A DNA stretch of 44,972 bases from Kiritimatiellota bacterium (GCA_014381785.1 JACNKZ010000049.1:1-44972); one strand, 5' to 3'. Shown: positions 891 through 42,179, numbered from the stretch's first letter. Numbers and translations are program-made. The notes: a model not told the origin generated them from the sequence alone.

Positions 891-3383
891 ATGGCGAAAA
901 AATCGACACCGATGATGGATCAGTACCGGCGCATCCGCCGCGAACTGCCCGAAAACACCATCCTCTTTTTCCGGCTGGGCGATTTCTATGAAATGTTCAT
1001 GGATGATGCCAAAGAAGCCGCGCGCATTCTCGACATCACCCTGACCAAACGCCACGACATTCCGATGTGCGGAATCCCCTACCATGCCGCCGACAACTAT
1101 CTCGCTCAGCTGATTGACGCGGGCAAAAAGGTGGCGATCTGCGAGCAGGTCGAAGACCCCGCCGCGGCCAAGGGCATTGTGAAGCGCGAAGTGACGCGCA
1201 TCATCACCCCCGGCACCATTCTCGACGAAGGCACGCTCGACCGCTCCCAGAACAATTACCTCGCCGGACTGGTGCGTGACGGCAACCACTTCGGCCTCGC
1301 CATGCTCGACCTCTCCACCGGCGCGTTCTGGATCGAAGAATCGGCCAGCGCCGACGCCCTGTGCGGCAATCTGGCGCGCTACTGCCCGCAAGAGTGCATC
1401 GTTCCCGAACTATCCATTGAGGACAATCTGATTGATCCAATCCTTGGAAACACGCTCAAAACGATCTGCGAGGACTGGACGTTTGAAGCCGACAACGCCG
1501 CGGACACGCTGCTGCGCCACTTTAAGGTGCACTCGCTCAAAGGGTTCGGCTGCGAAAACGCGCCGCTCGGTCTGCGCGCCGCGGGCGCCGTGCTCCATTA
1601 TGTAAGCACCGAGCTGCGCCGCAATCTGGCGCACGTCCGGCGCATCCAGCTCAAAAATCCCGAAGACTATCTGCTGCTCGACGAAACGACGGTGATGAAC
1701 CTCGAGTTGATCGCGCCGCTCAACCCGGCGCGCCAGGGGCCGAAATCCACCCTGCTCTCGGTGCTCGACTCGACCCGCACGGCGATGGGCGCGCGCATGC
1801 TGCGCGAGTGGATCGTCCGGCCGCTGCGTGAGCTCAGTGCGATTAACGCGCGGCACGACGCCGTTGAAGCGTTCACCACCAACCGCATGCTGTTGAATGA
1901 CGTGCGCGAAGTGCTGGGCAACATGCGCGACCTCGAACGGATTATGTCGCGCCTCGGCTCGGGCGGCGGCAACGCGCGCGATCTGCGCGCCGTCGGCGAA
2001 TCATTAGATCAACTCCCTCAGCTTAAGGAGCTTCTGTGCCGCAACGCAGTTGCTTTCCAAACCTTGGAAAAATCGATAGAAATTCTTCCGGGCCTTGGGA
2101 AAATCATCGATGAGGCGATCACCGATGAGCCCGCCGTTTCAACCAGGGAGGGCGGAATGATCCGCGCGGGCTATTCGGCGGAGCTCGACGAGCTGCGCAA
2201 TGCAGGCGCGAAGGGTAAGCAGTGGCTGGCGGAGTTTCAGGCGGCCGAGCAGGAGCGCACCGGTATCAAGTCGCTCAAAATCCGCTACAACAAGGTATTC
2301 GGCTATTTTATTGAGATCACGAATTCCAATTTGTCGATGGTGCCGGAGGAGTACACCCGTAAGCAGACGATGACCAACGCCGAACGGTTCATCACGCCGG
2401 AGCTCAAAGAGTACGAGAACAAGATTCTCGGTGCGCAGGACCGGGCGATCACGCTGGAAATGGAACTGTTCGCCCAGATCCGCGACGAGGTGGTGAAGGA
2501 GATCGACACCATTCAGCGCAACGCGCGCGCCGTGGCCGAAACCGATGTGCTGGCCGCCTTTGCAGAAAACGCGCTGACCCGCCGCTACGTGCGCCCGCAG
2601 ATGAGCGAGAGCGACGACTTGGAAATTGTCGACGGCCGCCACGCGGTGGTCGAGCAGATGCCCGACGCCGAGCGCTTTGTTCCCAACGACACAACGCTCA
2701 ACTGCATCGACCATCAGCTGGTCATCATTACCGGGCCGAACATGGCGGGAAAATCGACCTACATCCGGCAGGTGGCACTCATTACGATACTGGCGCACAT
2801 CGGTTCGTTCGTGCCGGCGAGCGAAGCAAAAATCGGTTTGGTCGACCGCGTTTTCACCCGCGTCGGCGCCAGCGACGATCTCGCGCGCGGTCGCTCCACC
2901 TTTATGGTGGAGATGCAGGAAACCGCCAATATTTTGAACAACGCGACGCCGAAGAGCCTGATTGTGCTCGACGAGATCGGGCGCGGCACCAGTACATTTG
3001 ACGGCATCTCCATTGCGTGGTCGGTGGCCGAATATCTCTGCACGAATCCGGCGGTGCGCGCCAAGACGCTGTTCGCCACGCACTACCACGAGCTGACCGA
3101 CCTGAGCTTGACGATGCCGGGCGTTCAAAATGCCAACGTGCTGGTTAAGGAGCGCGGCGACCAGATTACGTTCCTGCGCAAGATTGTTCCCGGCTCCGCC
3201 GATAAAAGCTACGGAATCCACGTTGCGCGCCTGGCGGGCCTGCCCGCCACGGTGCTCGACCGCGCCAATGAAATCCTGCGCAACCTCGAAGAGGGCGAAT
3301 TCGAGGCAGAGGGCGCACCGAAAATCGCCCGCCAGCGTCCGCGCAAACAGAAAGCCGATGATTCTCAGATGGATCTCTTTTAG
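891..3383 (+). CDS. mutS: DNA mismatch repair ATPase MutS
   Basis: MutS recognises base mismatches and small loops as a dimer and licenses excision through MutL. The 830 residues match the usual length (E. coli 853). The N-terminal mismatch-binding domain has the F-x-E motif (F32, E34 in G-D-F-Y-E-M-F). The clamp/core regions follow, with G-Y-F-I-E-I-T. The ABC-type ATPase carries Walker [10 protein letters not shown] (615-623), Walker B L-I-V-L-D-E near 690-695, and the G-R-G-T-S-T-F-D-G signature. The C-terminus ends Q-M-D-L-F. The ATG at 891 is used although the Shine-Dalgarno is weak; a small inverted repeat (AGCC/GGCT) lies just upstream. A TTTCCAA-N3-TTGGAAA palindrome at 2054-2070 is translated as F-Q-T-L-E-K in the lever region. 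Confidence 0.97.
2054..2070. repeat. Palindrome TTTCCAA-ACC-TTGGAAA in mutS (with degenerate partner at 2093)
   Basis: Perfect 7-bp arms with an ACC spacer, centred at 2062 and read F-Q-T-L-E-K. A degenerate copy (TTCCGG-GCC-TTGGGAAA) is centred at 2093, exactly 31 bp away. From my memory of E. coli MutS, this stretch of the protein has no length change. Confidence 0.85.
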
Positions 3384-3399
3384 CGTCTCTGCGAGACGC
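3383..3399 (+). other. Hairpin overlapping the mutS stop codon
   Basis: GCGTCTC (3383-3389) and GAGACGC (3393-3399) form a perfect 7-bp stem with a 3-nt loop directly at the end of mutS. No U-tract follows, so it is not a canonical intrinsic terminator. It could stabilise the mutS mRNA 3' end. Confidence 0.45.
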
Positions 3400-3556
3400 G
3401 GAATGATGGAGTAGAGGAATTATGGAATATTGATTTGCACCGAATTCTCCTACCAAAAACATCTAAGAAAACGGTGAGGTTACCCGGTCCAAATGGATTT
3501 CTGGATGGGAACCATTGATCCAACATTCCCCCATTCCAACATTCCACTCCTCCTGT
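3395..3556. repeat. Inverted pair of GGAAT/ATGGAGT-type periodic repeats between mutS and the membrane protein
   Basis: The mutS-3631 gap contains a run of short GGAATGATGGAGTAGAGG-like words at 3400-3430 and their approximate reverse complement (CCATTCCAACATTCCACTCC) near 3530-3555, so the two arms could fold on each other. The same word family, again with both orientations, occurs at 35656-35743. No gene is supported here; the open frame upstream of 3631 lacks a ribosome site and is repeat-derived. Confidence 0.5.
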
Positions 3557-5659: not shown

Positions 5660-5692
5660 AAACGGTTCCGGATCCTCGGGGCCGTTTTTTTT
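5660..5692 (+). terminator. Intrinsic terminator after the membrane/TPR gene
   Basis: AAACGG (5660-5665) pairs with CCGTTT (5682-5687). The stem extends through two G-U pairs and CCG/CGG, the loop is six bases, and a run of eight T follows. The T-run touches the stop codon of the convergent hydrolase gene at 5691. Confidence 0.85.
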
Positions 5693-6839
5693 ATTTAAGC
5701 AGTGTCGCTTTTGACGTCGGCTGATGATTTTCAAACAGGTGGGAATAAGCAAACAGGGCGAAGCCCCTGCAACCCGCCTCGCGTGCCGCCGCAATCTGCC
5801 GCCGGATTTCGCGGGCGTCTCCCTCGCAATTGATGCCCACCACCAATTGATTGGCAGCGCCCCTGCGCCCAAGCACACGCTTCATGTTGATCAAACGCTC
5901 ATCATACAGCGAAGCGTTGTAGTTCATAGGCACCAGCCAGTCGACTGAACCGGTTTTCGCCCACTGGGAGCTGTCTTGAAACGCCTGGGTGTAGCCTGCA
6001 GAAAAATCGGCCATCACGCTGGCGGAGAGAACCGCCTGTGGCCCGCGGGAGGCTTTAAGCACCCCGCGCAGATCGCTCACCACCTGCGACACCGCGTTGC
6101 GACGAAAGGCATCCCACTGCTTGCGTGACGTAGATGAGCCCATTGCACGGCGCGAGACCGGATCGAACGAAAAGGTGGAGTGCGCCATGATTTCGGCAGA
6201 CGAAGCGCGCGGATAGATTTCGCGGGCGACATCCTTATAGTCGTAGGGAAAGCGAATGTAGTCCAGATGCAGCCCGGCGATGTCGTAGCGCGCCAGTTCG
6301 GCGGCAATCTGCGAAAGATGACTGCGCACCGCCGGATGCGCCGGATTCAAAAAACTGTACCACGCGCTGGTCGGCCGCATCCGCGCGCCGGTCGAGTCGA
6401 CCATAAACCAATCGGGGTGCGCGGTCCAAAGCTGACCAGCCGCGCGCGGCGGGTCGACCTTCCCGCGCCAGCCGGGCAACACATTGATGTAGGCGTGGAG
6501 CCGGATATTGTATCGTTTGGCCCAGCCAGCAGCCATTTGCAGCGGGTCCCAGCCCGGATCTTTACCGGTGTTCGCCACATCCTTGCCGTGCAGCTCAAAG
6601 GCCCACGGCTCAACCTGGCTGGGATAAAATGCTGTTCCGTTGCCGCGCACCTGAAAAAAGATATCCGTAAATCCCGCCTTGGCGCAGTTAACAACAATCG
6701 ACGAAACATCGAGCGGGGTTTTGTAGTCGAAGCGCGTCACCCAAATCGCACGCACCTCGGGCTGGCGAGGCGGGCGGGCCCCGGCGAACAGAACGACAGG
6801 CAGGAGCAAAAGCAAAAAAAGAAGCGGGCGCGTTTTCAT
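5691..6839 (-). CDS. Secreted glycoside hydrolase-like protein, GHL10/DUF187 family
   Basis: The protein starts with a signal peptide (M-K-T-R-P-L-L-F-L-L-L-L-L-P-V-V-L-F-A-G). It continues with V-R-A-I-W-V-T-R-F-D, then G-F-T-D-I-F-F-Q-V-R-G-N-G-T-A-F-Y and G-L-H-L-D-Y-I-R-F-P-Y. These are the conserved strands of the GHL10 (Pfam PF02638) TIM-barrel family that includes E. coli DigH, a hydrolase of denuded peptidoglycan glycan strands. At ~382 residues it is the usual single-domain size. I chose ATG 6839 over the GTG two codons upstream because AAGGTG then lies at a sensible distance. The gene is convergent with the membrane/TPR gene and divergent from tolQ. The substrate (glycan strand or another polysaccharide) cannot be read from sequence. 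Confidence 0.88.
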   Translation of the reverse strand: MKTRPLLFLLLLLPVVLFAGARPPRQPEVRAIWVTRFDYKTPLDVSSIVVNCAKAGFTDIFFQVRGNGTAFYPSQVEPWAFELHGKDVANTGKDPGWDPLQMAAGWAKRYNIRLHAYINVLPGWRGKVDPPRAAGQLWTAHPDWFMVDSTGARMRPTSAWYSFLNPAHPAVRSHLSQIAAELARYDIAGLHLDYIRFPYDYKDVAREIYPRASSAEIMAHSTFSFDPVSRRAMGSSTSRKQWDAFRRNAVSQVVSDLRGVLKASRGPQAVLSASVMADFSAGYTQAFQDSSQWAKTGSVDWLVPMNYNASLYDERLINMKRVLGRRGAANQLVVGINCEGDAREIRRQIAAAREAGCRGFALFAYSHLFENHQPTSKATLLK

Positions 6840-6858: not shown

Positions 6859-6979
6859 TTTCCAATGTTTGGAAAGCAACAGGTTGCGGCTTGCGGTTTT
6901 TTCCAAGGTTTGGAAAATGAAGGTCGCATTTTTTCCAATGTCTGGAAAAATGGAGGTCGAGTTTTCGGAACCTTGGAAT
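6859..6979. repeat. Array of four TTTCCAA-N3-TTGGAAA palindromes upstream of tolQ
   Basis: Sites are centred at 6867 (perfect, TGT spacer), 6908 (perfect, GGT), 6940 (one mismatch, TGT) and 6971 (degenerate left arm, ACC). Centre-to-centre spacings are 41, 32 and 31 bp, close to 4, 3 and 3 helical turns. The array fills the gap between the divergent GHL10 hydrolase and tolQ, so it sits where promoters for both must lie. A small hairpin AACGCC-gtt-GGCGTT (6984-6998) follows just before the tolQ ribosome site. Confidence 0.85.
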
Positions 6980-7011
6980 TGATAACGCCGTTGGCGTTAA
7001 AAGGAGTTTTT

Positions 7012-8808: not shown

Positions 8809-9999
8809 ATGAAAAAACTCATTTTCCTTTTCCTGTTATCCGCCTGCTGCACCGCCTCAGCCCAGGTCCGGGTGGCAAAGTCCGCAGATCGCAAATTAAC
8901 GATCAATCTGGCCGGCCTGCGCATCAGCGGCCCGGCTGCACAGCAGGTTTTCCAAACATTGGAAAACGACCTGCGCCTGTCCGGATGGTTCCAGCCAATG
9001 CGCGGCGGCGGCGACCTGCAGCTGAGCGGATCGGTTGATCAAAACGGCTCCAACGTCAAAGCCTCACTGCAGGTGACCCGCGCGGCAGACCGCGCCCTTC
9101 TACTTTCCAAAGGCTACTCCCTTGAGGCCGCCCGTGCCCGCACTCTGGCCCACCGCGCGGCGGACGATATCGTCGAGGCCATCACCGGCCGCAAAGGAAT
9201 CGCCTCCACCAAGATTGCCGTGATCGGCACCCAGTCGGGCGCTAAAGAAATCTATCTCTGCGATGCGGACGGCGGGGGACGGGTACAGCTCACCCGGGAC
9301 AGAAGTATTGTGGTGGGCCCCAACTGGGGGCCGGACGGCAATTCACTGGTTTACACTTCTTTCATGCGAGGCTTTCCCGATGTCTATTCCGTCAACCTGC
9401 GCAGCGGGAAGCGCGAAGGGCTCGCGAGCTACAGCGGCCTCAATACCGGGGCGGCGCTGTCGCCCAACGGCAAAGAACTGGCGCTGATTCTCTCCAAGGA
9501 CGGCAACCCGGAGCTTTACATCCAGACGCTCCGAGGCAAAAAATTGACCCGCCTCACCTCCACGCTGCGCGCCACGGAGGCCAGCCCGACCTGGTCGCCA
9601 GACGGACAGCATCTGGTTTATGTCTCGGATCGCAACGGGACGCCGCAACTCTATAAAATCAGCCGCACCGGCGGCCGACCGCAGCTCATCAGCAGCCGGG
9701 GAACAGAAAATGTCGCTCCGGACTGGGGGCCGAATGGGCTGATTACCTGCGCCAGCCGCTCCGGCGGCCGCTATCACATCGCAATCATTCATCCCTCCAC
9801 GGGCGAAACCCGTTACCTTCCAAACGACGGGGCCGATTATGAGGATCCGTCATGGGCTCCCGATGGACGTCATCTGGTCGCCACCCGCTCTGTACGCTAC
9901 CGATCCAGCCTCTACCTCCTTGACACAGTCAGCGACGCTCCGGTAGCTTTGATCTCTGGCGGCGGGGACTGGATTTCTCCGGCCTGGGCGCCACAATAA
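8809..9999 (+). CDS. tolB: Tol-Pal system periplasmic beta-propeller protein TolB
   Basis: A signal peptide (K-K-L-I-F-L-F-L-L-S-A-C-C-T-A-S-A) precedes an N-terminal alpha/beta domain that includes D-D-I-V-E-A-I-T-G. Successive WD-like propeller blades follow with the TolB hallmarks P-N-W-G-P-D-G-N-S-L-V-Y, A-A-L-S-P-N-G-K-E-L-A-L, P-T-W-S-P-D-G-Q-H-L-V-Y and P-S-W-A-P-D-G-R-H-L-V. Its 396 residues are slightly short of E. coli (430). TolB shuttles between Pal and TolA/OmpA. The palindrome at 8949-8965 is read as F-Q-T-L-E-N within the N-terminal domain. The ATG at 8809 follows an AAGGAA-like site. Confidence 0.95.
   Translation: MKKLIFLFLLSACCTASAQVRVAKSADRKLTINLAGLRISGPAAQQVFQTLENDLRLSGWFQPMRGGGDLQLSGSVDQNGSNVKASLQVTRAADRALLLSKGYSLEAARARTLAHRAADDIVEAITGRKGIASTKIAVIGTQSGAKEIYLCDADGGGRVQLTRDRSIVVGPNWGPDGNSLVYTSFMRGFPDVYSVNLRSGKREGLASYSGLNTGAALSPNGKELALILSKDGNPELYIQTLRGKKLTRLTSTLRATEASPTWSPDGQHLVYVSDRNGTPQLYKISRTGGRPQLISSRGTENVAPDWGPNGLITCASRSGGRYHIAIIHPSTGETRYLPNDGADYEDPSWAPDGRHLVATRSVRYRSSLYLLDTVSDAPVALISGGGDWISPAWAPQ
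8949..8965. repeat. Palindrome TTTCCAA-ACA-TTGGAAA in tolB
   Basis: Perfect arms, centred at 8957, translated F-Q-T-L-E-N in the N-terminal domain of TolB. I see no clear partner at 31 or 42 bp. Confidence 0.85.
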
Positions 10000-11759: not shown

Positions 11760-12474
11760 GCTGGGCGTTAACATCGACCATGTCGCCACCCTGCGACAGG
11801 CACGCGGAACGGTCTACCCCGACCCCGTAGAGGCTGCAAAAATCTGCGCCCGGGCCGGGGCCGATAGCATTACCGTCCACCTGCGCGAAGACCGTCGCCA
11901 CATTCAAGACGCCGATGTCTACCGCCTCAGCAAAGAGTGCCCCCTGCCCATCAATCTGGAAATGGCCAACGCCGAAGAAATCGTGCAGATCGCTCTGGAA
12001 GTTCAACCGGCCGAAGTCTGCCTCGTTCCGGAAAAACGGCAGGAACTCACCACCGAAGGCGGCCTGGATGTCATCGGAAATTTCCAACCATTGGAAAAAA
12101 CCGTCCAGCGACTTCAGGAGAACGGATCGCTCGTCAGCCTGTTTGTCGATCCCGATGAAAAAACACTTGAAGCCTGCGCTCAAACGGGAGCCCGCGTTGT
12201 GGAACTGCACACCGGCGCATTCTGCGACGCAACCGATCCCGCGGAAGTAGCCGCCCTGCTCCGGAAACTGATTGCCGGCGCAGAAACCGCGCATCGACTG
12301 GGTCTGCAGGTCAATGCCGGACACGGCATTAATCTGAACAACCTGCCGCGCATCCTGACCCTTCCCCACCTAGACACACTCAACATTGGCCACAGCATCA
12401 TCGCCCGCGCGGTTTTCCACGGTTTGGAACATGCGGTGCGTGAACTGATCGCGGCCATGAACCCGACACCATGA
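11743..12474 (+). CDS. pdxJ: Pyridoxine 5'-phosphate synthase PdxJ
   Basis: PdxJ condenses 1-deoxyxylulose 5-phosphate with 3-amino-2-oxopropyl phosphate to give pyridoxine 5'-phosphate in the DXP-dependent vitamin B6 route. The 243 residues match the family. Landmarks are L-G-V-N-I-D-H-V-A-T-L-R-Q-A-R-G, H-L-R-E-D-R-R-H-I, P-E-K-R-Q-E-L-T-T-E-G-G-L-D-V and V-N-A-G-H-G-I-N. I chose ATG 11743 because the family begins within a few residues of L-G-V-N-I-D-H; a GAGG lies 10 bases upstream. Its stop overlaps the next start (ATGA). It carries a palindrome (12081-12097, F-Q-P-L-E-K) and a degenerate one near its end (12414-12430). Confidence 0.97.
   Translation: MSRSLKLGVNIDHVATLRQARGTVYPDPVEAAKICARAGADSITVHLREDRRHIQDADVYRLSKECPLPINLEMANAEEIVQIALEVQPAEVCLVPEKRQELTTEGGLDVIGNFQPLEKTVQRLQENGSLVSLFVDPDEKTLEACAQTGARVVELHTGAFCDATDPAEVAALLRKLIAGAETAHRLGLQVNAGHGINLNNLPRILTLPHLDTLNIGHSIIARAVFHGLEHAVRELIAAMNPTP
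12081..12097. repeat. Palindrome TTTCCAA-CCA-TTGGAAA in pdxJ
   Basis: Perfect arms, centred at 12089, translated F-Q-P-L-E-K just after the conserved T-T-E-G-G-L-D-V. Compared from memory with E. coli PdxJ, the spacing to the next conserved V-S-L-F is unchanged, so the site replaces residues rather than adding them. Confidence 0.85.
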
Positions 12475-12999: not shown

Positions 13000-14502
13000 A
13001 TGAAAACGATCTCTTCCGCTGACATGCGCGAACTCGACCGCCGGACCATCGAAGAATTCAACGTTCCCGGCGACGTGCTGATGGAGCGCGCCGGACAAGG
13101 GGTCGCTGAGATTACACTCGATATTCTCACCGCCCGGATGAGCGACTCGGTGCTGCTCATCGCCGGAACCGGAAACAACGGAGGCGATGTATTTGCCGCC
13201 GCCAGCTTTCTCGCTGAAGCCGAGCTGGATGTAACCGTCTGGATTTGCGGATCGAAACGGAAAATCAAAGGCGATGCGGAATATCATCTGAAAAAAATGA
13301 TCCGCCGCGGGATCCAGCCCGTCGAAATCACCAACCCTGAGGATCTCGCCCTGGAGCGCACGCCCGCCGTCATTGTGGACGGCCTGCTTGGCACCGGCGC
13401 CACCGGCGCGCCGCGCGGTTTTATGAGCGAGGTGATCAACTTCATCAATAAGGAGGCGCAGCGCAGCTTTATTCTTTCAGTCGATATTCCCTCCGGCGTG
13501 GATGCCGACACCGGGATCGCGGAAGGCAGCGCCGTCCGCGCCAACCTCACCGCCACCATGTGCCTGCCCAAAACCGGCCTGATTCGGCCTGAGGCGATCC
13601 CATACGTTGGGAATATTGAAGTGATCGACATCGGCATTCCCTCCATTCTGAAAGAACAGGTTCCGGCCTGTCCCGATGCGGAGCTGATCGACCGGGCCAA
13701 CCTGCTGATTCCATTTCGCGGCAACGAAACCCACAAGGGCCATCACGGTCATGTGCTGCTGATTGGCGGTTCGGTCGGAACCACAGGAGCCATCGCCATG
13801 GCCGCGCGCGCCGCGCTGCGCTCCGGCGCGGGGCTTGTCAGCGTGCTGGCACCCGAAGAGGTCTATCCAATTGTCGCGCAGGCCGCCGGACCTGAAATCA
13901 TGGTGCACCCTTTTCCTGACATTGGAAAACTGAGTGTCGATTTTTCCAAGGTTTGGAAAAAAGTGAATGCGGTTTGTGTCGGGCCCGGCCTCGGACAGCA
14001 TCCAGAGTTCATTGAGCAACTCTTGAAGGTATGCCCGGTTCCGCTGGTGCTCGACGCGGATGCGTTATGCGTATCGCCGGAGAAGATTGCCGCGGCCAAC
14101 TGTCCGGTGGTGCTCACACCGCATCCCGGCGAGTTTGAGCGGTTGTTCGGCGAGCCGGTCAGCGACCGCTGGGCGCAGACCCGCGCCGCCGCAGACCGTA
14201 CCAGCCAAACCGTTGTGCTGAAAGGCGCGGGAACGGTTGTGGCGCACCCGGACTATAAAATGGGGGTGAACATGAGCGGGAACCCCGGTATGGCAACGGC
14301 CGGCTCCGGCGATGTGCTTACCGGAATTCTCAGCGCCCTGCTGGGTCGGGGCATGGAGCCGTTTGAGGCCGCCATCACTGGCGTGCACCTGCACGGGCTG
14401 GCTGGCGACATTGCCGCAGAGGAGATGACGCAGGAGGCGATGATTGCCACAGATATCATCCTCGCCCTGCCCGATGCGTTCCGCATGATTCAGTTCAGTT
14501 AA
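13000..14502 (+). CDS. nnr: Bifunctional NAD(P)H-hydrate epimerase / ADP-dependent NAD(P)H-hydrate dehydratase
   Basis: The enzyme repairs hydrated NADH/NADPH. The N-terminal YjeF_N domain (~1-215) epimerises the S/R forms and has A-G-T-G-N-N-G-G-D-V-F-A-A-A and V-D-G-L-L-G-T-G. The C-terminal ribokinase-like domain (~225-500) dehydrates the S form and has the catalytic N-P-G-M-A-T-A-G-S-G-D-V-L-T-G motif. 500 residues is normal for the fusion. The segment P-D-I-G-K-L-S-V-D-F-S-K-V-W-K-K is encoded by two palindromic sites 31 bp apart. Its 3' end overlaps the convergent phosphofructokinase gene by 8 bp. Confidence 0.95.
   Translation: MKTISSADMRELDRRTIEEFNVPGDVLMERAGQGVAEITLDILTARMSDSVLLIAGTGNNGGDVFAAASFLAEAELDVTVWICGSKRKIKGDAEYHLKKMIRRGIQPVEITNPEDLALERTPAVIVDGLLGTGATGAPRGFMSEVINFINKEAQRSFILSVDIPSGVDADTGIAEGSAVRANLTATMCLPKTGLIRPEAIPYVGNIEVIDIGIPSILKEQVPACPDAELIDRANLLIPFRGNETHKGHHGHVLLIGGSVGTTGAIAMAARAALRSGAGLVSVLAPEEVYPIVAQAAGPEIMVHPFPDIGKLSVDFSKVWKKVNAVCVGPGLGQHPEFIEQLLKVCPVPLVLDADALCVSPEKIAAANCPVVLTPHPGEFERLFGEPVSDRWAQTRAAADRTSQTVVLKGAGTVVAHPDYKMGVNMSGNPGMATAGSGDVLTGILSALLGRGMEPFEAAITGVHLHGLAGDIAAEEMTQEAMIATDIILALPDAFRMIQFS
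13912..13959. repeat. Pair of TTTCCAA-N3-TTGGAAA palindromes in nnr, 31 bp apart
   Basis: The perfect copy is 13943-13959 (GGT spacer, centre 13951), read F-S-K-V-W-K-K. A copy with two left-arm mismatches lies at 13912-13928 (ACA spacer, centre 13920), read F-P-D-I-G-K. The same DNA word is therefore translated in two different frames within 16 codons. Confidence 0.85.
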
Positions 14503-18302: not shown

Positions 18303-18392
18303 GTTCCAAACCTTGGGAAAATACAGGCTGTTTTTTCCAAGGTTTGGAAAACCAACTACGTCGGAGCTTGCTGTTTTTCCAAGGTCTGGAAA
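18303..18392. repeat. Array of three TTTCCAA-N3-TTGGAAA palindromes upstream of uvrA
   Basis: Centres are 18311 (degenerate: GTTCCAA-ACC-TTGGGAAA), 18342 (perfect, GGT) and 18384 (one mismatch, GGT). Spacings are 31 and 42 bp. The last site ends 9 bp before the uvrA ATG, so it covers the place where a ribosome site would normally be; a bound protein or the RNA hairpin could affect uvrA expression. The array fills the divergent gap with the small membrane protein. Confidence 0.85.
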
Positions 18393-18401: not shown

Positions 18402-21320
18402 ATGAGTGAAAAATGGATCACCGTCACTGGCGCGCGCGAGCACAACCTCAAAAATGTGGATGTGCGGATTCCGCGCAATAAACTCACCGTCATCACCGGC
18501 TTGAGCGGTTCAGGTAAATCGAGCCTCGCCTTCGACACGCTCTACGCCGAAGGCCAGCGCAAATATGTCGAAAGCCTCTCAGCCTACGCCCGCCAGTTTC
18601 TCGACCAGATGCAAAAACCCGATGTCGACACCATTGAGGGCCTCTCGCCCGCCATCTCCATCGAGCAGCGTACGGCAGGTTCCAACCCGCGCTCCATCGT
18701 CGCCACCGTCACCGAAATCCACGACTACCTGCGCCTGCTTTTTCCAGCCATTGGAAACGTCCACTGCCCCGGGTGTGGCAAACCGATCCAGCAGCAGAGC
18801 GCCGAGAACATCGTCGAGCAGCTGCTGGACATTCCGGCCAAAACCAAAGTGATGTTGCTCGCCCCGCTGGTGCGCGGACGCAAAGGCAAGCACGAAGAGG
18901 TGTTCGAGACGATCCGCAAGCAGGGCTTTGTGCGCGTGCGCGTCGACGGCGAACTCTACGAAATCGAACACGCCCCCGATCTGGAGAAAAATAAAAAACA
19001 CACCATCGAGGCGGTCGTCGACCGGCTGGTCATTGACTCCGCCGTGCGCAGCCGCATCAACGACTCGGTCGAGCTCGCGCTCTCCACCGGCGAGGGACTG
19101 CTGATCGCCATGGTTCAAACCGGAGACAAATGGGCCGACCGGCTCTACTCCGAAAAAAACGCCTGTCTCGACTGCAACATCAGTTTTGAAACCCTCACAC
19201 CCAAACACTTTTCGTTCAACAGTCCCTACGGCGCCTGCCCAACCTGCCACGGCCTGGGCAACATGCTCACCTTCGACGAAGAGCTGATTGTCCCCAACGA
19301 AGAGCTGCCGCTCGAAGAATGCGTTCACCCGTGGCGGCGCGGCGGGCGCCGAGCCATCATCTACTACAAAAAACTGCTGTCCGCCGTCGCCGACAACTAC
19401 GGCATCGATCTAAACACCCCGTTCAACGAGCTGCCCGCCTCCTTTAAGAAAATTCTCTTCTACGGCTCGGACGAACCCATCAGCTACTACATGCGCCGCC
19501 GGAAAATCGAAAAACCCTTCGAAGGCATCATCCCCAACCTGCAGCGCCGTTACACGGAAAGCGACAGCGACTGGACGCAAGACCGTCTGCGCGCCTACAT
19601 GGGCCAGCAGCAGTGCACCGACTGCCACGGCGCGCGCCTGCGGCCCGAAAGTCTCGCCTGCACCGTCAACGGACAGAACATCCACCAACTCTGCTCCCTC
19701 TCCATCGACCGCGCGCAGGAGTTTTTCCAAACATTGGAAGGGAATAGTGGCAAAGGGCAAGGGGCAAAGGGCAAAGGAAAAACGGAAAGCTCTGCGATCA
19801 CTCGCCACTCGCCACCCGACACTCGCCACCCTCCGGGGTTAACCCCGGAGGAGGCGCACATCGCCCGCGACATCCTCAAAGAAATCCGCGCGCGTCTCGG
19901 CTTTATGATCGATGTGGGGCTCGACTACCTCACCCTCGACCGCGAAAGCGGCACGCTCTCCGGCGGCGAAGCGCAGCGCATCCGGCTCGCCACGCAGATC
20001 GGCTCGCGCCTGACCGGCGTGCTCTACGTGCTCGACGAGCCAAGCATCGGCCTGCACCAGCGCGATAACGACCGTCTGCTCGCCACCCTTAAAGAGTTGC
20101 GCGACCTCGGCAATACCGTTGTCGTTGTCGAACACGACGAGCAGACCATCCGCGAGGCCGACCACGTGATCGACCTCGGCCCCGGCGCGGGCGTCCACGG
20201 CGGCGAGATCGTTTTTGCAGGCACGCCAAAACAACTGCTGAAAGCCAAAAACTCACTGACCGCGCAGTACATGCGGCGCGAAACCCAGATCGAAGTGCCA
20301 AAAAAACGGACCAAAGCAACGAACGGCTTCCTCGAAATTAAAGGGGCGTCCGAAAACAATCTCAAAAACGTGAACGTGAAAATTCCGCTCGGACTGTTCA
20401 CCTGCGTCACCGGGGTTTCCGGCTCCGGCAAAAGCACGCTCACCGACGATGTGCTGCGCCGCGCCCTCTTCCGCCATTTCCACGGTTCCAAGGAACGTCC
20501 CGGAAAACACAAGGAACTGCTCGGCGTTGAGCAGATCGACAAGGTAATCGTGATCGATCAGTCGCCGATCGGTCGCACCCCGCGATCCAACCCCGTCACC
20601 TATACCGGCGCCTTTTCGATTATCCGCGATCTTTTCGCGCAGCTGCCCGCCTCGAAGGTGCGCGGCTATAAACCGGGGCGGTTCAGCTTCAACGTCAAGG
20701 GCGGCCGCTGCGAGCACTGCACCGGCGACGGTCTGCTCAAAATCGAAATGCACTTTCTGCCGGATGTCTATGTGACCTGCCCGCAGTGCAACGGCAAACG
20801 TTACAACCGCGAAACACTTGAAGTGCACTACGGCGGCAAAAGCATCGCCGATGTGCTCGCCATGACGATCAATGAAGCCTGCGAATTTTTCAGCGCGATC
20901 CCCGGCGTGGAGCGCAAACTGCGCACGTTGCGCGAAGTCGGGCTCGGCTACCTTTGCCTCGGTCAGTCCGCCACCACGCTCTCCGGCGGCGAGGCCCAGC
21001 GCATCAAGCTCTCCTCCGAGCTGAGCAAAAAGGCGACCGGCAAAACACTCTACATTCTCGACGAACCGACCACCGGGCTGCACTTCGCCGATGTCCATAA
21101 GCTGATTGAGGTGCTCGAAACACTGCGCGACGGCGGCAATACCGTGCTGGTGATTGAGCATAACCTCGATGTAATCAAACGCGCCGACTGGCTGATCGAC
21201 CTCGGCCCCGAGGGCGGGGAGCGCGGCGGAAAGGTCGTCGTCGCCGGTACCCCCGAAAAGGTCGCCGCCCACCCAAAATCCTATACGGGAAAATACTTGG
21301 CAGAATTGCTAGGGGAATAG
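18402..21320 (+). CDS. uvrA: Excinuclease ABC subunit A (UvrA) with a repeat-derived insertion
   Basis: UvrA scans DNA for bulky lesions and loads UvrB. Landmarks are Walker A1 G-L-S-G-S-G-K-S (33-40), zinc module 1 (C-L-D-C ... C-P-T-C near 249-277), signature 1 L-S-G-G-E-A-Q-R with [11 protein letters not shown], Walker A2 G-V-S-G-S-G-K-S-T, zinc module 2 (C-E-H-C ... C-P-Q-C) and L-D-E-P-T-T-G-L-H. The 972 residues are 32 more than E. coli (940). The excess is explained by residues ~447-479, a Gly/Lys then Arg/His/Pro-rich stretch made of low-complexity DNA repeats, between E-F-F-Q-T-L-E and [11 protein letters not shown]. All catalytic motifs remain in frame, so the protein is probably active. 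Confidence 0.98.
18741..18757. repeat. Palindrome TTTCCAG-CCA-TTGGAAA in uvrA
   Basis: One arm mismatch, centred at 18749, translated F-P-A-I-G-N: the third reading frame of the motif, the only case in this window. Spacing to flanking conserved UvrA residues (Y-L-R-L-L-F ... C-P) equals that of E. coli as I remember it, so it could also be chance convergence. Confidence 0.55.
19724..19740. repeat. Palindrome TTTCCAA-ACA-TTGGAAG in uvrA
   Basis: One mismatch in the right arm, centred at 19732, read F-Q-T-L-E-G. It directly abuts the low-complexity insertion that follows. Confidence 0.8.
19741..19851. repeat. In-frame repeat-derived insertion in uvrA with a 22-bp palindrome
   Basis: The segment consists of AAGGGCAAGGGGC-like purine repeats (19749-19780), CACTCGCCACTCGCCAC-like repeats (19799-19829), and a perfect palindrome whose core is CTCCGGGGTTAACCCCGGAG (19831-19850, extending one base each side). 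It encodes roughly 33 residues absent from typical UvrA. Base use differs sharply from the surrounding gene. Confidence 0.8.
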
Positions 21321-26652: not shown

Positions 26653-27377
26653 GCAACCTCCCACAGCTGAAGGTGCCGATCCGCCGCGCGGGCGATCTGC
26701 TCCGGATTATGGCTCACCCACACCACCGCCGCGCCGGTTGATTTCCGATACTCCGCAATCACCTCTTCGACTTTCCAAACATTGGAAGCATCCAGCGCCG
26801 CGGTCGGCTCATCGAGTAGCAGCACCTTGGGTTCATTCAGCAAAAGACGGAACAACGCCAGCCGCTGCTTCTCCCCCGTCGAAAGTCGATCCACCCGCCA
26901 CTCCAACACATCGCGTTGAAACCCTAATTTTTCCAAACATTGGAAATCTGAACCGCGAATGAACGCGAACCGAGCCCCTGGCGAGCTGGGCTCCGCGAAT
27001 GCGGGGCAACGAAGTGGCAATGAACGCGAATCCCCTCCTTCGGAGGGGTGGCCGTAGGCCGGAGTAGGTTCTTTTTGACTCCTGGCTCCTGATCTCTGCC
27101 CCCTGAAGTGGTCTCCGACGCAATCGGCCCACCAACTGCTTTCAGCCGACAGCCATCCGACCTGCCGCCGCCACTGCGGTGCTGGCATTTCATTGCGATC
27201 GGTTCCGTCCAGAAAAACGGCACCTTCCGCCAGATCGAGATCGGCCAGCGCGCGCAACAGCAGCGTTTTACCGCACCCCGACGGGCCGGACAACGCCACG
27301 CACTCCCCGCGCTCCACCGCAAAAGAAAAAGGGCCTCCGCAGACTGTGCGCAGGCCCTCTATGATCAACCGGCTCAT
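26649..27377 (-). CDS. fetA: FetA-like ABC ATPase carrying a ~53-residue repeat-derived insertion
   Basis: 242 residues. Walker A G-P-S-G-C-G-K-T is at 31-38, the signature L-S-T-G-E-K-Q near 165-171, Walker B V-L-L-L-D-E-P at ~185-191, and a switch His lies in W-V-S-H-N-P. Residues ~92-144 have no counterpart in FetA-type ATPases as I know them; they come from several dispersed repeats placed in frame (26930-27110). No Gln stands at the Q-loop position (V-G-W-L-S-A-E-S). The helical subdomain that contacts FetB is exactly where the insert lies, so coupling could be impaired although all catalytic motifs are intact. It starts 5 bp after kdsD. Confidence 0.88.
   Translation of the reverse strand: MSRLIIEGLRTVCGGPFSFAVERGECVALSGPSGCGKTLLLRALADLDLAEGAVFLDGTDRNEMPAPQWRRQVGWLSAESSWWADCVGDHFRGQRSGARSQKEPTPAYGHPSEGGDSRSLPLRCPAFAEPSSPGARFAFIRGSDFQCLEKLGFQRDVLEWRVDRLSTGEKQRLALFRLLLNEPKVLLLDEPTAALDASNVWKVEEVIAEYRKSTGAAVVWVSHNPEQIARAADRHLQLWEVA
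26772..26788. repeat. Palindrome TTTCCAA-ACA-TTGGAAG in fetA
   Basis: One arm mismatch, centred at 26780. On the coding strand it reads S-N-V-W-K-V in the D-loop region right after Walker B, without changing the length of this segment relative to E. coli FetA as I remember it. Confidence 0.75.
26930..26946. repeat. Palindrome TTTCCAA-ACA-TTGGAAA in fetA
   Basis: Perfect arms, centred at 26938, coding strand F-Q-C-L-E-K. It abuts the 80-bp repeat (4 bp away), marking one edge of the insertion hot spot. Confidence 0.85.
26951..27030. repeat. 80-bp dispersed repeat, copy 1, inside fetA
   Basis: Starts AACCGCGAATGAACGCGAA and ends CAATGAACGCGAA; it matches 41325-41404 (reverse complement) at 79 of 80 bases. 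In fetA it is read in the orientation opposite to the pabB copy, as D-S-R-S-L-P-L-R-C-P and so on. It is followed by CCCCTCCTTCGGAGGGG (27031-27047), a GGCCGTAGGCC unit and CTCCTGGCTCCTGA-type repeats up to ~27100, i.e. at least four repeat types nested in one gene. Confidence 0.92.
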
Positions 27378-28367: not shown

Positions 28368-28426
28368 TTTCCAATGTTTGGAAAATTATAATAAAAACCG
28401 ATCTCGCCAGCTCCAAAGGTTGGAAA
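28368..28426. repeat. Two TTTCCAA-N3-TTGGAAA palindromes between kdsD and the nuclease gene
   Basis: A perfect site (28368-28384, TGT, centre 28376) and a degenerate one (GCTCCAA-AGG-TTGGAAA, centre 28418) are 42 bp apart in the 103-bp divergent promoter region. Confidence 0.82.
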
Positions 28427-28457: not shown

Positions 28458-31400
28458 ATGAAGATGAGCAACGGCGCACTGACAATTTTTCCGACCGAAC
28501 TGGCCAAACGCCGGGCGGAGCGGAACGCCGTTCTCAAAGCCGGGGCCATCGACACCTCCCGCCTGTTTACGCAGAAAAAGCTGATGGACACCTGCGAGCG
28601 CGCCGCGCGCCGCACGGGGCTGCTCGCCGGTCGCGCTCACGGTGAGGCGGAAATGCGGCTCCTGCTCGAACAGACCGCAGAAAATGTGCGGTTTACCCCT
28701 CGTCAACCGATCGCCAGGCTCTCCCCCGCCGCGCGCGCCGACCTATTAAAACAGCTTATCGAAAAACTGGCTTTTCTGGCGGAAGACAGCAGAGCCGTTA
28801 CCGAATGGCTACTGGCGCATGAGCCGGAGCATAAACTCCACGGCCTCGGGCAGCTGCTCGACGCATGGCGCGCTCAATGTTCAAACATGGGTCTTGCGGA
28901 CCGTTTTGCGATCAACACCGCCCTGCTGCAACTGATTGAAAGCGGCGACCTGCCCGCAGAGCTGGACGGAGAAATCCACTTCCGCGCCGTGCGCTGGTTC
29001 AACCCGTTCGAAGAACGCTTTGCGGCCGCGCTCAAAACCCGGCTCGGAACGGAGCGGGTACAGATTTTCTCGGTTCTGCCGGGCGAACACGCACAGGCCG
29101 CCGGAGACCGGCTCTGCGCAAGAGTTCGCGCGGATCTCGGCAACGAGGAGGAATGGAAGCAGTGGGCCGAGGATTTTGCCGATGCCTATGAAGCCGACGA
29201 CAGCAACATTCTCGAAAAAAACTCCCGCGAACGGGTTTCGTGTTTTGTCTCCGCTCATCCCTACGGCGAAATCGAAGACGCCGCACGGCGCATTGCCGCT
29301 GAAATCGAACACGGCAACGCGCCCGATCAGATGGCGCTGATCCTGCGCGACCTCAGTCCGTACACCGACATCGTCCCCGATGTCTTTCAGCGCTTCGGAA
29401 TTCCCTACTACTTCCGGCGCGGCACGCCCGCCGCCGCGCACCCGCCAGTGAAAGCCCTGCTCGCCCTGCTCGCCTTTCCGCACAACCACTCGCGCGACCG
29501 GTTATGCGACCTGCTTCTTTCACCGTCCATTGACTGGCCCGGCGTGGAAGACCGCGGGGAACTGGTTGCGCAAATCCGCCAAACCGAGCCGCCGCGCCTG
29601 CGCCGCCTGCCGAAGGAGCTCCGTGACTTTTTCCAGAGTTCGGAATTTTCGGAACAGGTTCAATTTTTGATAAAACAACACCACCTCGAACTGCCGGAAG
29701 AGGTTCACAGCCTAATTCAAGAAATTGCGTTGCTTCCGGCGCTACCGATGGAACGAATGATTTCCCTTTTTGAGAAACTGCTCGATAACGTCACCCTCAA
29801 CGATGAGCTCAGCACCGAAAGCGGCGTATGGATCGTCAACCCGATGGATGCGGCGGGCCTGCGGTTCGAGTCGGTCTACATCGCCGGCATGGACGACCGC
29901 ACCTTCCCGCAAATTCCGAAAGCGGACTCTCTGTTCAACGCCGCCGAACGCAACGCCCTGCGCGCTTTTCTGGAAGAGCGCAACATTCCCTGCCCGCGGC
30001 TCGCACTGTCCGAAACCGGCGAAGCTCTGATTCAGGAAGAGATTCTCTTCCTGACCGCCCTGAGCGCCGCCACCGAAAAACTGACCCTTTCGTACACACA
30101 AAGCGATGCGGACGGCAAAGAGCGCGCGCCCGGTGAATTCTTTGAGCGGATGCGCGGGCTGTCAAAAATCGATGCGCCGGCACACGGCGAATCATTCCAC
30201 ACCATTCTGCCGCCGGAAGCCGTCCGCGCTGAAGATGAAGCCAGGCAGACCCAGGCCTGGTTAAATCCATCTCCCGCAACCATCCAGACAGCCATCACGC
30301 CATTACCCGCTCTCCAGAAGTGGTTGGAAAAAAATCCGGAGTTCAGCGCAACGGCACTGGAATCGCTGGCCCGCAATCGCTTTGTTTTCTTCCTCGAAAA
30401 AGTGCTGGGCATCAAACCCGACCGCACCCACGGGGACGACACCGACCCGATGGACCGCGGCTCGATCGTTCACGACATTCTGGAGCGGGTGTATGCCGCT
30501 GTCGCTGAACGGAGCGACTGGTACGCAAAAAAAGTTTCCAATCATTGGAAACTTTCACAGGAAGGTGAGATTCCGCTCGCGGTGTTTGACCCGGCCAAAG
30601 CCGATGAGCTATTGGCGCTGGCCCGCGGGATTGCAGAAGAGGAGTTTGCGAAAGCGGAGCGGCGGGCGAGCTGTCATCTGGGACATCGCGCGGTATGGGA
30701 AACGGAAAAACGCAAGCTGCACCAAGTGATCGAAAACATTGTCCGCATGGATATCAATACGGCACAAGCCGAGAACCGCTATCCCGCCCTCTTTGAAATG
30801 AAGTTTGATGAAAAGCACGATCTGCCGATTACCCTCCACTACACTCAGGGGTCAACTCAGGGGTCAGTCCGTGAATCGTGCATCGAAGATGACACGATTC
30901 CTCGTACTGACCCCATTCGCTTCGAGGAGGGTATCCGGCTGAAGGGAAAAATCGACCGCATCGATCTGATTTTTGATGACGACGGCGAACTGCAACAGTT
31001 GCTGGTGGTGGACTACAAAGGAAAATCAAGGATCGACACAGCGGAGACCATCGCCAAAAAGACCGCGCTCAATCTCGACTGCCAGCTGGCGCTCTACACC
31101 TTTGCCGCCCAGCAGTTTTTCTTCGGCGAGCACAACACACCGGAACTGAACGAAAAGGTGCAGGCGGTCTACCACCTGCAGGAGCGCGACCTTGAAAAAA
31201 TGTCGAAGCACTTCGGCAACGACAAAAAACGCCTCGTCATGACGCCGGAGCTAACGGAACAATTCCTCGAAACGCTTTTTTCCAATGTTTGGAAACTCCG
31301 CAACGGCGATCTTGCCCCCGAACCGCTCATCGAAGGCTACGACGATTACTCCCACATCTGCCGCACCCCTGCTATCGATCCAAAAGAACTGTTGAAGTAA
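28458..31400 (+). CDS. AddB/RecB-like PD-(D/E)XK nuclease protein
   Basis: 980 residues. The first ~600 have the inactivated helicase layout of AddB-type proteins, including V-W-I-V-N-P-M-D-A-A-G-L-R-F and Y-I-A-G-M-D-D-R-T-F-P. The C-terminal third holds a RecB-like nuclease with M-D-R-G-S-I-V-H-D-I-L-E-R-V (motif near 660), L-K-G-K-I-D-R-I-D-L and V-V-D-Y-K-G-K-S, giving the D...D-Y-K catalytic set. No Walker A is evident, so it is probably a partner nuclease for recombination or double-strand break end-processing, but no addA lies nearby. Two palindromes (30535, 31279) and a REP-type hairpin (30843-30914, about 24 residues) are translated in frame between nuclease motifs. ATG 28458 or 28464 are both possible starts. 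Confidence 0.88.
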   Translation: MKMSNGALTIFPTELAKRRAERNAVLKAGAIDTSRLFTQKKLMDTCERAARRTGLLAGRAHGEAEMRLLLEQTAENVRFTPRQPIARLSPAARADLLKQLIEKLAFLAEDSRAVTEWLLAHEPEHKLHGLGQLLDAWRAQCSNMGLADRFAINTALLQLIESGDLPAELDGEIHFRAVRWFNPFEERFAAALKTRLGTERVQIFSVLPGEHAQAAGDRLCARVRADLGNEEEWKQWAEDFADAYEADDSNILEKNSRERVSCFVSAHPYGEIEDAARRIAAEIEHGNAPDQMALILRDLSPYTDIVPDVFQRFGIPYYFRRGTPAAAHPPVKALLALLAFPHNHSRDRLCDLLLSPSIDWPGVEDRGELVAQIRQTEPPRLRRLPKELRDFFQSSEFSEQVQFLIKQHHLELPEEVHSLIQEIALLPALPMERMISLFEKLLDNVTLNDELSTESGVWIVNPMDAAGLRFESVYIAGMDDRTFPQIPKADSLFNAAERNALRAFLEERNIPCPRLALSETGEALIQEEILFLTALSAATEKLTLSYTQSDADGKERAPGEFFERMRGLSKIDAPAHGESFHTILPPEAVRAEDEARQTQAWLNPSPATIQTAITPLPALQKWLEKNPEFSATALESLARNRFVFFLEKVLGIKPDRTHGDDTDPMDRGSIVHDILERVYAAVAERSDWYAKKVSNHWKLSQEGEIPLAVFDPAKADELLALARGIAEEEFAKAERRASCHLGHRAVWETEKRKLHQVIENIVRMDINTAQAENRYPALFEMKFDEKHDLPITLHYTQGSTQGSVRESCIEDDTIPRTDPIRFEEGIRLKGKIDRIDLIFDDDGELQQLLVVDYKGKSRIDTAETIAKKTALNLDCQLALYTFAAQQFFFGEHNTPELNEKVQAVYHLQERDLEKMSKHFGNDKKRLVMTPELTEQFLETLFSNVWKLRNGDLAPEPLIEGYDDYSHICRTPAIDPKELLK
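30535..30551. repeat. Palindrome TTTCCAA-TCA-TTGGAAA in the nuclease gene
   Basis: Perfect 7-bp arms that extend to 11 bp (AAAGTTTCCAA / TTGGAAACTTT), centre 30543, read S-N-H-W-K-L. The unusual TCA spacer occurs only here. Confidence 0.85.
30843..30914. repeat. In-frame REP-type hairpin in the nuclease gene
   Basis: A 12-bp direct duplication ACTCAGGGGTCA (30843-30854, 30855-30866) leads into a two-part stem. GGGGTCAGT (30860-30868) pairs with ACTGACCCC (30906-30914), and GAATCGTG (30873-30880) pairs with CACGATTC (30893-30900). The GGGGTCAGTCC core equals that of the REP unit beside the transposase at the window start. It adds about 24 codons (T-Q-G-S-T-Q-G-S-V-R-E-S and so on) without a stop or frameshift, just before the catalytic L-K-G-K-I-D. 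Confidence 0.88.
31279..31295. repeat. Palindrome TTTCCAA-TGT-TTGGAAA in the nuclease gene
   Basis: Perfect arms, centre 31287, read F-S-N-V-W-K-L near the C-terminus. It is the last good site before a 10.8-kb stretch with none. Confidence 0.85.
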
Positions 31401-38349: not shown

Positions 38350-38351
38350 GC

Positions 38352-40373: not shown

Positions 40374-40398
40374 GAGCCTTGGAGTTAAACAGAATTTG

Positions 40399-40425
40399 AA
40401 CCGCTAATGAACGCTAATTTACGCC
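40399..40425. repeat. Degenerate AACCGCTAATGAACGCTAAT repeat overlapping the pabB stop codon
   Basis: The sequence is a decayed form of the AACCGCGAATGAACGCGAA ends seen in the 80-bp repeat. The TAA stop of the downstream-ending pabB gene (40419-40421) is formed within it. Confidence 0.6.
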
Positions 40426-42179
40426 AATATTGCCTTCCGCCATTTGCGGACAGAATTGATGAGCCAAATGAAGTCTGCACGCTTTAGATCATCGAGCATC
40501 ACAATCCCCTCTTCAATTTCGCCTCGCTCCAAAAGTTCATCGCGGAATGTGCCAGCTAGCAGACCGCAGGAAACCGGCGGGGTGATCTTGTGGCCGTCGA
40601 GCTCCACCACCACATTGGCAATGCAACTCTCCGTCACCTCGCCGCGCTCATTATAGAGAAGCACATCATCCGCCTCAGGAAAATCCACCTTCGCCCGCTC
40701 ATACGCCGCACGGTTCGTCGTCTTATGGTAAAGGAACACATCACCTGAATCGATCGGTTCTTTCGCAATGGCCAGCCTAATCACACGTTCGAAGGTGTGA
40801 TTAGGCTGATGCCTGATCGAAATTACCCCGTCCCGGTTCAATAGCAGTCGAATTCGCTGCGGCTCGTCAAAGGAGAGCGCCGCCAGCTCCGCACGGATCT
40901 TTTCGGAATCGATTTGGAAATCAAAATAGTCCGCTGACTCAGCCAGCCGCTTCAGATGACGTTCCAAAAGAAATATTTCTCCACCCTCCCAGAGCATTGT
41001 CTCGAGCAGCTCTAACGGCGGCATCCGCTTTGTCAAAATCGCGGCTTTTGAAAGTGCCTCTTCGTATTCCGATTCCGAATCAGAATCCCAGACGATCCCG
41101 CCACCAATCCCATACTCCACCACTCCAGAACTCCGATCCACCACCGCCGTGCGGATCGCCACATTGAACTGCGCGGTTCCGTCCGGCGCAATGAATCCAA
41201 TCGAGCCGGTGTAGATGCCGCGCGGGCCCTTTTCCAAACCCTGGATTAACTCCATCGTCTTGGCCTTCGGCGCGCCCGTGATCGAGGCGCAGGGAAACAG
41301 CGCCCTCATGATCTCCCCCAACTTTTCGCGTTCATTGCCACTTTGTTGCCCCGCATTCGCGGAGCCCAGCTCGCCAGGGGCTCGGTTCGCGTTCATTCGC
41401 GGTTGAAGCCTCCCTCGAACAGTAGACGTCATCTGCCAGACGGTCGGATATTTTTCGACATCGAAGCGGCTGAGCGTTTCAACTGAGCCGGCCTCGGCAA
41501 CGCGGCCGATGTCATTGCGAATCATATCGACGATCATGATATTTTCCGCGCGGTCCTTGGGCGAATTCTGCAAAACCTCCCGCTGCTTGCAATCATCGGA
41601 AAACGTCAGTCCGCGCGGAAGCGTTCCCTTCATCGGGCGCGAGGTGATGGTTCCATCTTTCAGTTCAAAGAAGAGCTCGGGTGAGGCGGAGCAGATCGCA
41701 ACGTCGTCCGTTTCGATGTACGCGCCGTAACGCCCCTGCTGCGCGGCGGCCAGATCGCAAAAGAAGGAAAATGGATCGCCCTCAAAATCCGCATTGAGCC
41801 GGAAGGTATAGTTGACCTGATAGGTGTTACCCGCCGCGATGTGCTCCTTGATTGCCGCAATCACTTTGGAATACTCATCGCGAGAAACCGATGGTATCCA
41901 CTCGCCGAGTCGATACTCCCCGTTTGATTCGGGTGATATTTTTCCCAAGGTTTGGAAAAGTCCGAATTGAAGAAGCGGCAGATCGCCCGGTTGATGCGTT
42001 TTGAGTGCGTCGTCAAACGCACCCGCGGCTTCGTAGGAAACAAAGCCCGCGGCCCACAGGCCGCTCGCTTCTATTTTTTCCAAACATTGGAAAACTTCGT
42101 CCGGCGTGCGAGCCGTCAGCACCTCGACCGGATCCTTAAAGGAAAGCCAGTCGTCACCGTGTTGGATCAGGCAGTTCAT
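40419..42179 (-). CDS. pabB: Fused aminodeoxychorismate synthase component I (PabB) / aminodeoxychorismate lyase-like (PabC)
   Basis: 586 residues. The N-terminal chorismate-binding domain (~1-370) has S-R-P-M-K-G-T-L-P-R-G, then I-M-I-V-D-M-I-R-N-D-I-G-R-V, F-P-C-A-S-I-T-G-A-P-K and Y-G-I-G-G-G-I-V-W-D-S. The C-terminal part (~380-586) is a class IV aminotransferase-like domain (V-L-L-Y-N-E-R-G-E-V-T-E; L-L-A-G-T-F-R-D-E-L-L). Together they make 4-aminobenzoate for folate. Residues ~259-285 (P-R-M-N-A-N-R-A-P-G-E-L-G and on) derive from an 80-bp mobile repeat in frame just before the F-P-x-x-S-I-T-G-A-P-K active-site segment. A palindrome near the N-terminus reads F-Q-C-L-E-K. ATG overlaps the small upstream gene's stop (ATGA). 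Confidence 0.93.
   Translation of the reverse strand: MNCLIQHGDDWLSFKDPVEVLTARTPDEVFQCLEKIEASGLWAAGFVSYEAAGAFDDALKTHQPGDLPLLQFGLFQTLGKISPESNGEYRLGEWIPSVSRDEYSKVIAAIKEHIAAGNTYQVNYTFRLNADFEGDPFSFFCDLAAAQQGRYGAYIETDDVAICSASPELFFELKDGTITSRPMKGTLPRGLTFSDDCKQREVLQNSPKDRAENIMIVDMIRNDIGRVAEAGSVETLSRFDVEKYPTVWQMTSTVRGRLQPRMNANRAPGELGSANAGQQSGNEREKLGEIMRALFPCASITGAPKAKTMELIQGLEKGPRGIYTGSIGFIAPDGTAQFNVAIRTAVVDRSSGVVEYGIGGGIVWDSDSESEYEEALSKAAILTKRMPPLELLETMLWEGGEIFLLERHLKRLAESADYFDFQIDSEKIRAELAALSFDEPQRIRLLLNRDGVISIRHQPNHTFERVIRLAIAKEPIDSGDVFLYHKTTNRAAYERAKVDFPEADDVLLYNERGEVTESCIANVVVELDGHKITPPVSCGLLAGTFRDELLERGEIEEGIVMLDDLKRADFIWLINSVRKWRKAILA
41325..41404. repeat. 80-bp dispersed repeat, copy 2, inside pabB
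   Basis: Reverse complement of 26951-27030, with one difference in 80 bases. On the pabB coding strand it starts AACCGCGAATGAACGCGAA and is translated N-A-N-R-A-P-G-E-L-G-S-A-N-A-G-Q-Q-S-G-N-E-R-E. The near-identity against otherwise unrelated genes indicates recent movement or gene conversion. Confidence 0.92.
41941..41958. repeat. Degenerate palindrome TTTCCCAA-GGT-TTGGAAA in pabB
   Basis: Arms match the 17-bp motif except for one extra C in the left arm; coding strand F-Q-T-L-G-K. Treated as a decayed site. Confidence 0.5.
42077..42093. repeat. Palindrome TTTCCAA-ACA-TTGGAAA in pabB
   Basis: Perfect arms, centre 42085, coding strand F-Q-C-L-E-K in the N-terminal region of PabB. It is the first good site after the 10.8-kb site-free interval. 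Confidence 0.85.

Follow-up and report, generated by a model that had tools for sequence, protein, structure and literature searches.

A helically phased palindrome repeated through Kiritimatiellota genomes: candidate sites for a cooperative, dimeric DNA-binding protein

What kind of element is a 17-bp palindrome that recurs inside and between the genes of a bacterial chromosome? The stretch studied here, called the window, is 44,972 nt of DNA from a Kiritimatiellota bacterium (GCA_014381785.1 JACNKZ010000049.1:1-44972). It carries 13 perfect copies of the word TTTCCAA-N3-TTGGAAA, six copies with one arm mismatch and five with two. Against these 24 sites, dinucleotide-shuffled versions average 0.17 (maximum 2), which confirms the over-representation claimed in the original prediction. 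All 18 sites named there were correctly placed (13 perfect, five with one mismatch), and the division into 12 within and six between genes holds as well, if the open reading frame (ORF) at 6865-7689 is taken to start downstream of its sites. The list was not complete: it overlooked six weaker sites, starting at 41942 (one mismatch) and at 1434, 12414, 13912, 18303 and 28410 (two mismatches). On balance, if only just, we think it probable that the palindromes are sites for one homodimeric protein that binds cooperatively on one face of the helix, probably in an architectural role.

Recurrence and helical phasing of the word

The word is neither near chance frequency nor confined to the window. 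The organism's own genome (2.22 Mb in 88 contigs) holds 331 perfect copies, against 0 for the reversed control word, and site density in the window is about 1.9 times the genome mean. All 13 congeneric genomes searched contain the word, in 30 to 412 copies. When the window was searched de novo for every gapped palindrome, this word family was recovered and no other noteworthy palindrome; Rfam and tRNA scans gave no matches there.

The arms are invariant in sequence, and the flanks show no conservation beyond about 2 bp. The constraint on the 3-bp spacer that had been proposed for the window extends to nine genomes, in which the usual spacer on one strand is N-C-(A/C) and about 98% of sites have C:G as the central base pair. 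Lineages differ in their preferred spacer: ACA or ACC in the organism's own genome, GCC and TCA in two of the other genomes compared (G050 and G065, respectively; genomes carry G-numbers and sequence stretches of such genomes L-numbers). Orientation within the arrays of G050 is random (56:59), as for a symmetric dimer.

Neighbouring sites lie a whole number of helical turns apart, and hence on the same face of the helix. In the window, the neighbour separations of up to 160 bp are 41, 32, 31, 31, 31, 42, 42, 158 and 135 bp, all within 1.5 bp of multiples of 10.5. When the distances between sites are combined over eight genomes, they lie at 22, 31-32, 42, 52-53, 62-63, 73-74, 83-84 and 92-95 bp and onward, with a phasing statistic R of 0.865 at a period of 10.4 bp for all pairs. 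The phasing persists when only adjacent sites are used, which avoids counting summed distances: R=0.86 at 37-150 bp (n=31) and R=0.72 at 101-300 bp (n=18, p about 1e-4). Pairs within genes, as called by a simple gene caller, are phased too (R=0.92, n=67). In a whole-genome pattern search of G036, the distances of 100-130 bp peaked at 104, 115 and 123-127 bp among the matches listed; R was 0.70 for these 50 pairs, a value reached by 0 of 20,000 uniform draws (p<5e-5).

Placement, dialects and turnover

Sites are found in genes and are enriched in all kinds of intergenic gap. In eight genomes, the density per kb was 0.18 in genes, 2.0 in co-directional gaps, 2.8 in convergent gaps and 1.9 in divergent gaps; these absolute values are approximate, as the genes were called with a simple in-house caller. 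Across 455 kb of G050, an array is present in 41% of convergent gaps, compared with 29% of co-directional and 30% of divergent ones. Its 84 array clusters lie about 5.5 kb apart and are more evenly placed than a random choice of gaps would give (mean coefficient of variation 0.54 versus 0.90 expected). Array spacing is likewise even in G049, tested against a uniform null. The original prediction foresaw the genome-wide recurrence of the site; it missed the phased arrays, their abundance at convergent gene ends and the dialects described below.

Lineages write dialects around a fixed core, TTCCA-N5-TGGAA. Two of them, TTTCCAC-N3-GTGGAAA (G063) and CTTCCAA-N3-TTGGAAG (G069), occur as pairs with a separation of 31 or 32 bp in stretches of genomes with few or no matches to the exact word. 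At the inner arm positions G056-G057 carry AA...TT and G058-G064 AC...GT. Congeners can also differ in having arrays at all: G081 has them, unlike G080 and G082, and so do G060, G062 and G063, unlike G061. The exact word is patchy in the class (53 of 149 genomes), and this patchiness is partly false because exact matching misses dialects. A phylogenetic profile based on the exact word was therefore misleading, and it was redone with the core. Phased pairs of the core occur in 61 of 184 genomes, with zero for the reversed control throughout. The positives include most members of families f1, f2, f7 to f11, f14, f17, f23, f24 and f71, and there are none in families f13, f18 to f22 and f27. No phased pairs were found in about 190 genomes of other classes of the same phylum. 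They are also absent from the metagenome-assembled genome, labelled Lentisphaerae, that holds the best named relative of the window's UvrA (68%).

A scan of IMG/VR for phased pairs returned only two viral contigs. One of these (L206) has genes that look Mu-like by eye, and its array may be flanking host DNA. Single sites in IMG/VR were scattered, mostly one per contig among the matches listed, a tally that has no control rate beside it. Literature searches with six 15-letter forms and with the names Kiritimatiellota, Verrucomicrobia and Lentisphaerae found no description of the word; most subscription journals lay outside these searches, and an earlier description is possible.

Some sites and site pairs are conserved at orthologous places between species, and others turn over. 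Some pairs keep their exact spacing at orthologous places of two species, with orthology judged by eye from sequence and spacing. In uvrA, the site at 18741 replaces residues in an alignment column with 0 gaps in 80 homologs, from which it follows that this site arose by substitution and not by insertion.

The sites of the window are collected in Table 1. Two in-gene sites each, above the gene average, fall in mutS (891-3383), uvrA (18402-21320) and the PD-(D/E)XK nuclease gene (28458-31400). In the part of uvrA at 19724-19840, an in-gene site is directly followed by a low-complexity insertion of about 30 residues in UvrA, which is not present in the homologs displayed.

Table 1. Palindromic sites in the window, with distances to the preceding site where sites are close
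Site	Coordinates	Context
Two arm mismatches	1434..1450	Inside mutS
Perfect	2054..2070	Inside mutS
Perfect	6859..6875	Opens phased array upstream of MotA/TolQ/ExbB-family gene (6997-7689), divergently of GHL10 gene (5691-6839)
Perfect	6900..6916	41 bp (4 turns) after 6859
One mismatch	6932..6948	32 bp (3 turns) after 6900
Degenerate, three mismatches	6963..6979	31 bp after 6932; from palindrome scan
Perfect	8949..8965	Inside PD40 beta-propeller gene
Perfect	12081..12097	Inside pdxJ
Two mismatches	12414..12430	Inside pdxJ
Two mismatches	13912..13928	Inside NAD(P)H-hydrate dehydratase/epimerase gene
Perfect	13943..13959	Same gene, 31 bp after 13912
Two mismatches	18303..18319	Opens three-site array in the divergent gap ahead of uvrA
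Perfect	18334..18350	uvrA upstream array, 31 bp after 18303
One mismatch	18376..18392	uvrA upstream array, 42 bp (4 turns) after 18334
One mismatch	18741..18757	Inside uvrA; encodes FPAIGN where homologs have e.g. FARIGR
One mismatch	19724..19740	Inside uvrA
Perfect	21667..21683	Inside TPR gene
One mismatch	26772..26788	Inside ABC transporter ATPase gene (26649-27377, - strand)
Perfect	26930..26946	Same gene, 158 bp (15 turns) after 26772
Perfect	28368..28384	Between divergent SIS-CBS and PD-(D/E)XK nuclease genes
Two mismatches	28410..28426	42 bp (4 turns) after 28368
Perfect	30535..30551	Inside PD-(D/E)XK nuclease gene
Perfect	31279..31295	Inside PD-(D/E)XK nuclease gene
One mismatch	41942..41958	Inside chorismate-binding/aminotransferase gene (40419-42179)
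Perfect	42077..42093	Same gene, 135 bp (13 turns) after 41942

Several arrays in other genomes have neighbours worth recording. In G026, contigs C99, C250 and C98 (L424, L425 and L423) carry arrays in a different dialect (e.g. TTCCATTGTGTGGAA) beside genes for a DUF499/HmaC-like ATPase, a PglZ-like protein and a DUF1156 methylase; apart from these contigs the genome has no phased pairs. They may be imported DNA or contamination of the bin. In the array-poor genomes G066 (L438, L440) and G144 (L435), several of the few phased pairs adjoin genes for a type III restriction enzyme, Cas3 and a type IIG restriction enzyme. A three-site array in G142 (L441, 2659-2740) lies between the genes for a LexA-like S24 repressor and a Y-family polymerase. 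Finally, a stretch of G069 (L386, 8275-11820) has 12 copies in 3.6 kb of a GC-rich palindrome, GCGGGC-N5-GCCCGC, unrelated to the word.

A proposed cooperative dimer and its rivals

The dyad symmetry of the sites and their phasing give good support to a homodimeric, cooperative binder that acts on one face of the helix. The range of the phasing, about one persistence length, together with the same-face rule is what cooperative dimers would need. A single sequence-specific protein, present in several related families of the class, would read TTCCA-N5-TGGAA (lengthened here to TTTCCAA-N3-TTGGAAA), with its dyad on the C:G pair, and the arrays would probably seed nucleoprotein complexes along the chromosome in which DNA is wrapped or bridged. 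The earlier proposal, that a dimeric DNA-binding protein has its site throughout the genome, is supported, and the phasing strengthens it. The motif, its phasing, placement, dialects and clade are observed, whereas the protein, its dimeric state, its cooperativity and its architectural role are inferred.

The role of the binder is less certain than its mode of binding. An architectural role is probable because arrays occur in genes and at gene junctions of every orientation (convergent, co-directional and divergent); the promoter-independent placement and the even spacing in two relatives favour it further. Among the functions suggested earlier, chromosome organisation and DNA uptake stay live, whereas restriction avoidance is disfavoured because it predicts rarity and an excess is observed. 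A bolder version seems possible to us, though short of probable: a clade-restricted dimer may use phased arrays to tile the chromosome, with neighbours any whole number of turns apart to a limit near one persistence length, and would then represent a new chromosome-marking system in which word and protein co-evolve in dialects. Such freedom in the number of turns would suggest that the docking partner of the dimers is a continuous surface, such as a protein filament, a membrane or a second DNA, and that they do not assemble into one fixed oligomer.

Several observations weigh against an architectural dimer. The searches made here identified no binder. Phasing at 100-130 bp was weak in G019 (R=0.36, p=0.10, among the matches listed), and at 188-218 bp G036 kept a weak signal (p=0.03), while G018 and G020 showed none. 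A several-fold spread in copy number among species of one genus is odd for an essential architectural protein, and the arrays of the organism's own genome are not evenly spaced. Some sites overlap likely promoters, so that regulation is possible, and the density comparison depends on approximate gene calls.

Two other readings are live rivals, one kept possible by the intergenic enrichment and the other brought to mind by the dialects and the fast change in copy number. The first, which we consider unlikely, is that the sites are operators of one global transcription factor, with cooperative dimers upstream of many genes and inert sites within genes. Sites are about 10-fold enriched between genes, and arrays lie within about 150 bp of many gene starts, some beside -10-like boxes. 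An operator set should be concentrated in promoter-bearing regions, whereas site density in convergent gaps equals or exceeds that in divergent gaps; the arrays are therefore not simply such a set. Nor did we find a fixed distance from sites to a -10-like box, and in-gene sites are phased as well. The genes adjoining arrays, among them a sulfatase, glycoside hydrolases and housekeeping genes, might be expected of a global regulator, yet they are of all kinds and have no common function.

The second, also rather unlikely, is a DNA-uptake watermark, in which a surface or pilus receptor prefers the word, uptake and recombination accumulate copies, and each lineage fixes its own dialect. We know of no helical phasing between copies of the DNA uptake sequences (DUS) of Neisseriaceae or the uptake signal sequences of Pasteurellaceae, and phasing to about 12 turns speaks against uptake here. 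These known sequences are short, of single orientation and non-palindromic, which differs from the dyad-symmetric arms of our word. They resemble it in being over-represented genome-wide, in and between genes, and DUS, like the word, vary in dialect from lineage to lineage around an unchanging core (PMC3630211). Hundreds to about 1000 copies without promoter preference, large differences in copy number among congeners and the substitution origin of the UvrA site would all suit uptake. So would the three few-array genomes in which several arrays adjoin defence genes, one set in a foreign dialect, as if imported from array-rich relatives.

Mobile repetitive extragenic palindromic (REP) repeats, spread by a REP-associated tyrosine transposase (RAYT)-like enzyme, are very improbable. 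Like REP elements, the word forms high-copy intergenic palindromes, and an ORF at 2-751, open at the contig start, resembles by eye the C-terminal part of a REP-associated (Y1, RAYT-like) transposase. This ORF has no Pfam match, however, and it is followed at 735-800 by a different repeat, two direct copies of AAAATGTCAGAATTCAAGGACTGACCCCACCTCCGT. The word also differs from REP elements in its variable spacer, its lack of flank conservation and its helical phasing, and in the one gene tested for unit insertion, uvrA, the site arose by substitution. An RNA hairpin or terminator is hardly credible: the word is an inverted repeat found at gene ends, but its arms are fixed in sequence and not compensatory, a T-tract lies on both sides, its spacing tracks the DNA helix, and sites occur within genes.

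Known systems and the putative binding protein

A cooperative, architectural dimer finds its best counterpart in the Lrp/AsnC (feast/famine) regulators. These bind with a centre-to-centre spacing of two or three turns on one face (PMC2995911), and two accounts describe palindromic sites with a degenerate centre and octamers that wrap or bridge DNA (PMC2995911; PMC10127797). The word shares the 6-N3-6 palindrome and the two- and three-turn spacings; it differs in that its sites take any whole number of turns to about 12. Moreover, no cognate Lrp was found whose recognition helix stays constant alongside the word. An Lrp orthologue is present in 130 of 149 genomes and is common in array-free families too. 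The entropy of its helix-turn-helix was 1.23 in motif-rich and 1.32 in motif-poor genomes, with no specific residues, and in the only helix-turn-helix-bearing Lrp of most genomes the recognition helix varies among array-rich genomes. Lrp was therefore rejected as the binder.

Noc sites have TTTCC...GGAAA arms, lie scattered along the chromosome and act structurally. Their half-site spacing is off by about half a turn compared with the word, and nearly all genomes of the class have one ParB regardless of motif count, with no paralogue that tracks the word; a Noc-like second ParB was rejected as well. These tests reject two candidates and not the class of explanation. A search for autoregulation in few-array genomes found arrays by defence genes, lexA/dinB and others, with no shared regulator, and the proteins common to the examined stretches of motif-rich genomes included no candidate binder.

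To our knowledge, HIP1 of cyanobacteria has neither a spacer nor phased arrays. HIP1, which the original prediction took as the nearest concept, is an 8-bp palindrome, GCGATCGC, tied to orphan methyltransferases (PMC4390886). It shares with the word a high iteration throughout the genome; it is a poor fit in sequence and architecture, and methyltransferases were not searched for here.

The exact word on its own would have concealed part of this distribution, since counting it yields false absences wherever dialects exist. Read through the core, the arrays offer a sequence-encoded map of the binding places of a putative protein across many uncultured genomes, with helical phase as the signature of cooperative binding. 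Identifying the binder would be a test of whether sequence-specific, evenly placed arrays fold bacterial chromosomes beyond the model phyla, or whether watermarks for DNA uptake have arisen in a new form.

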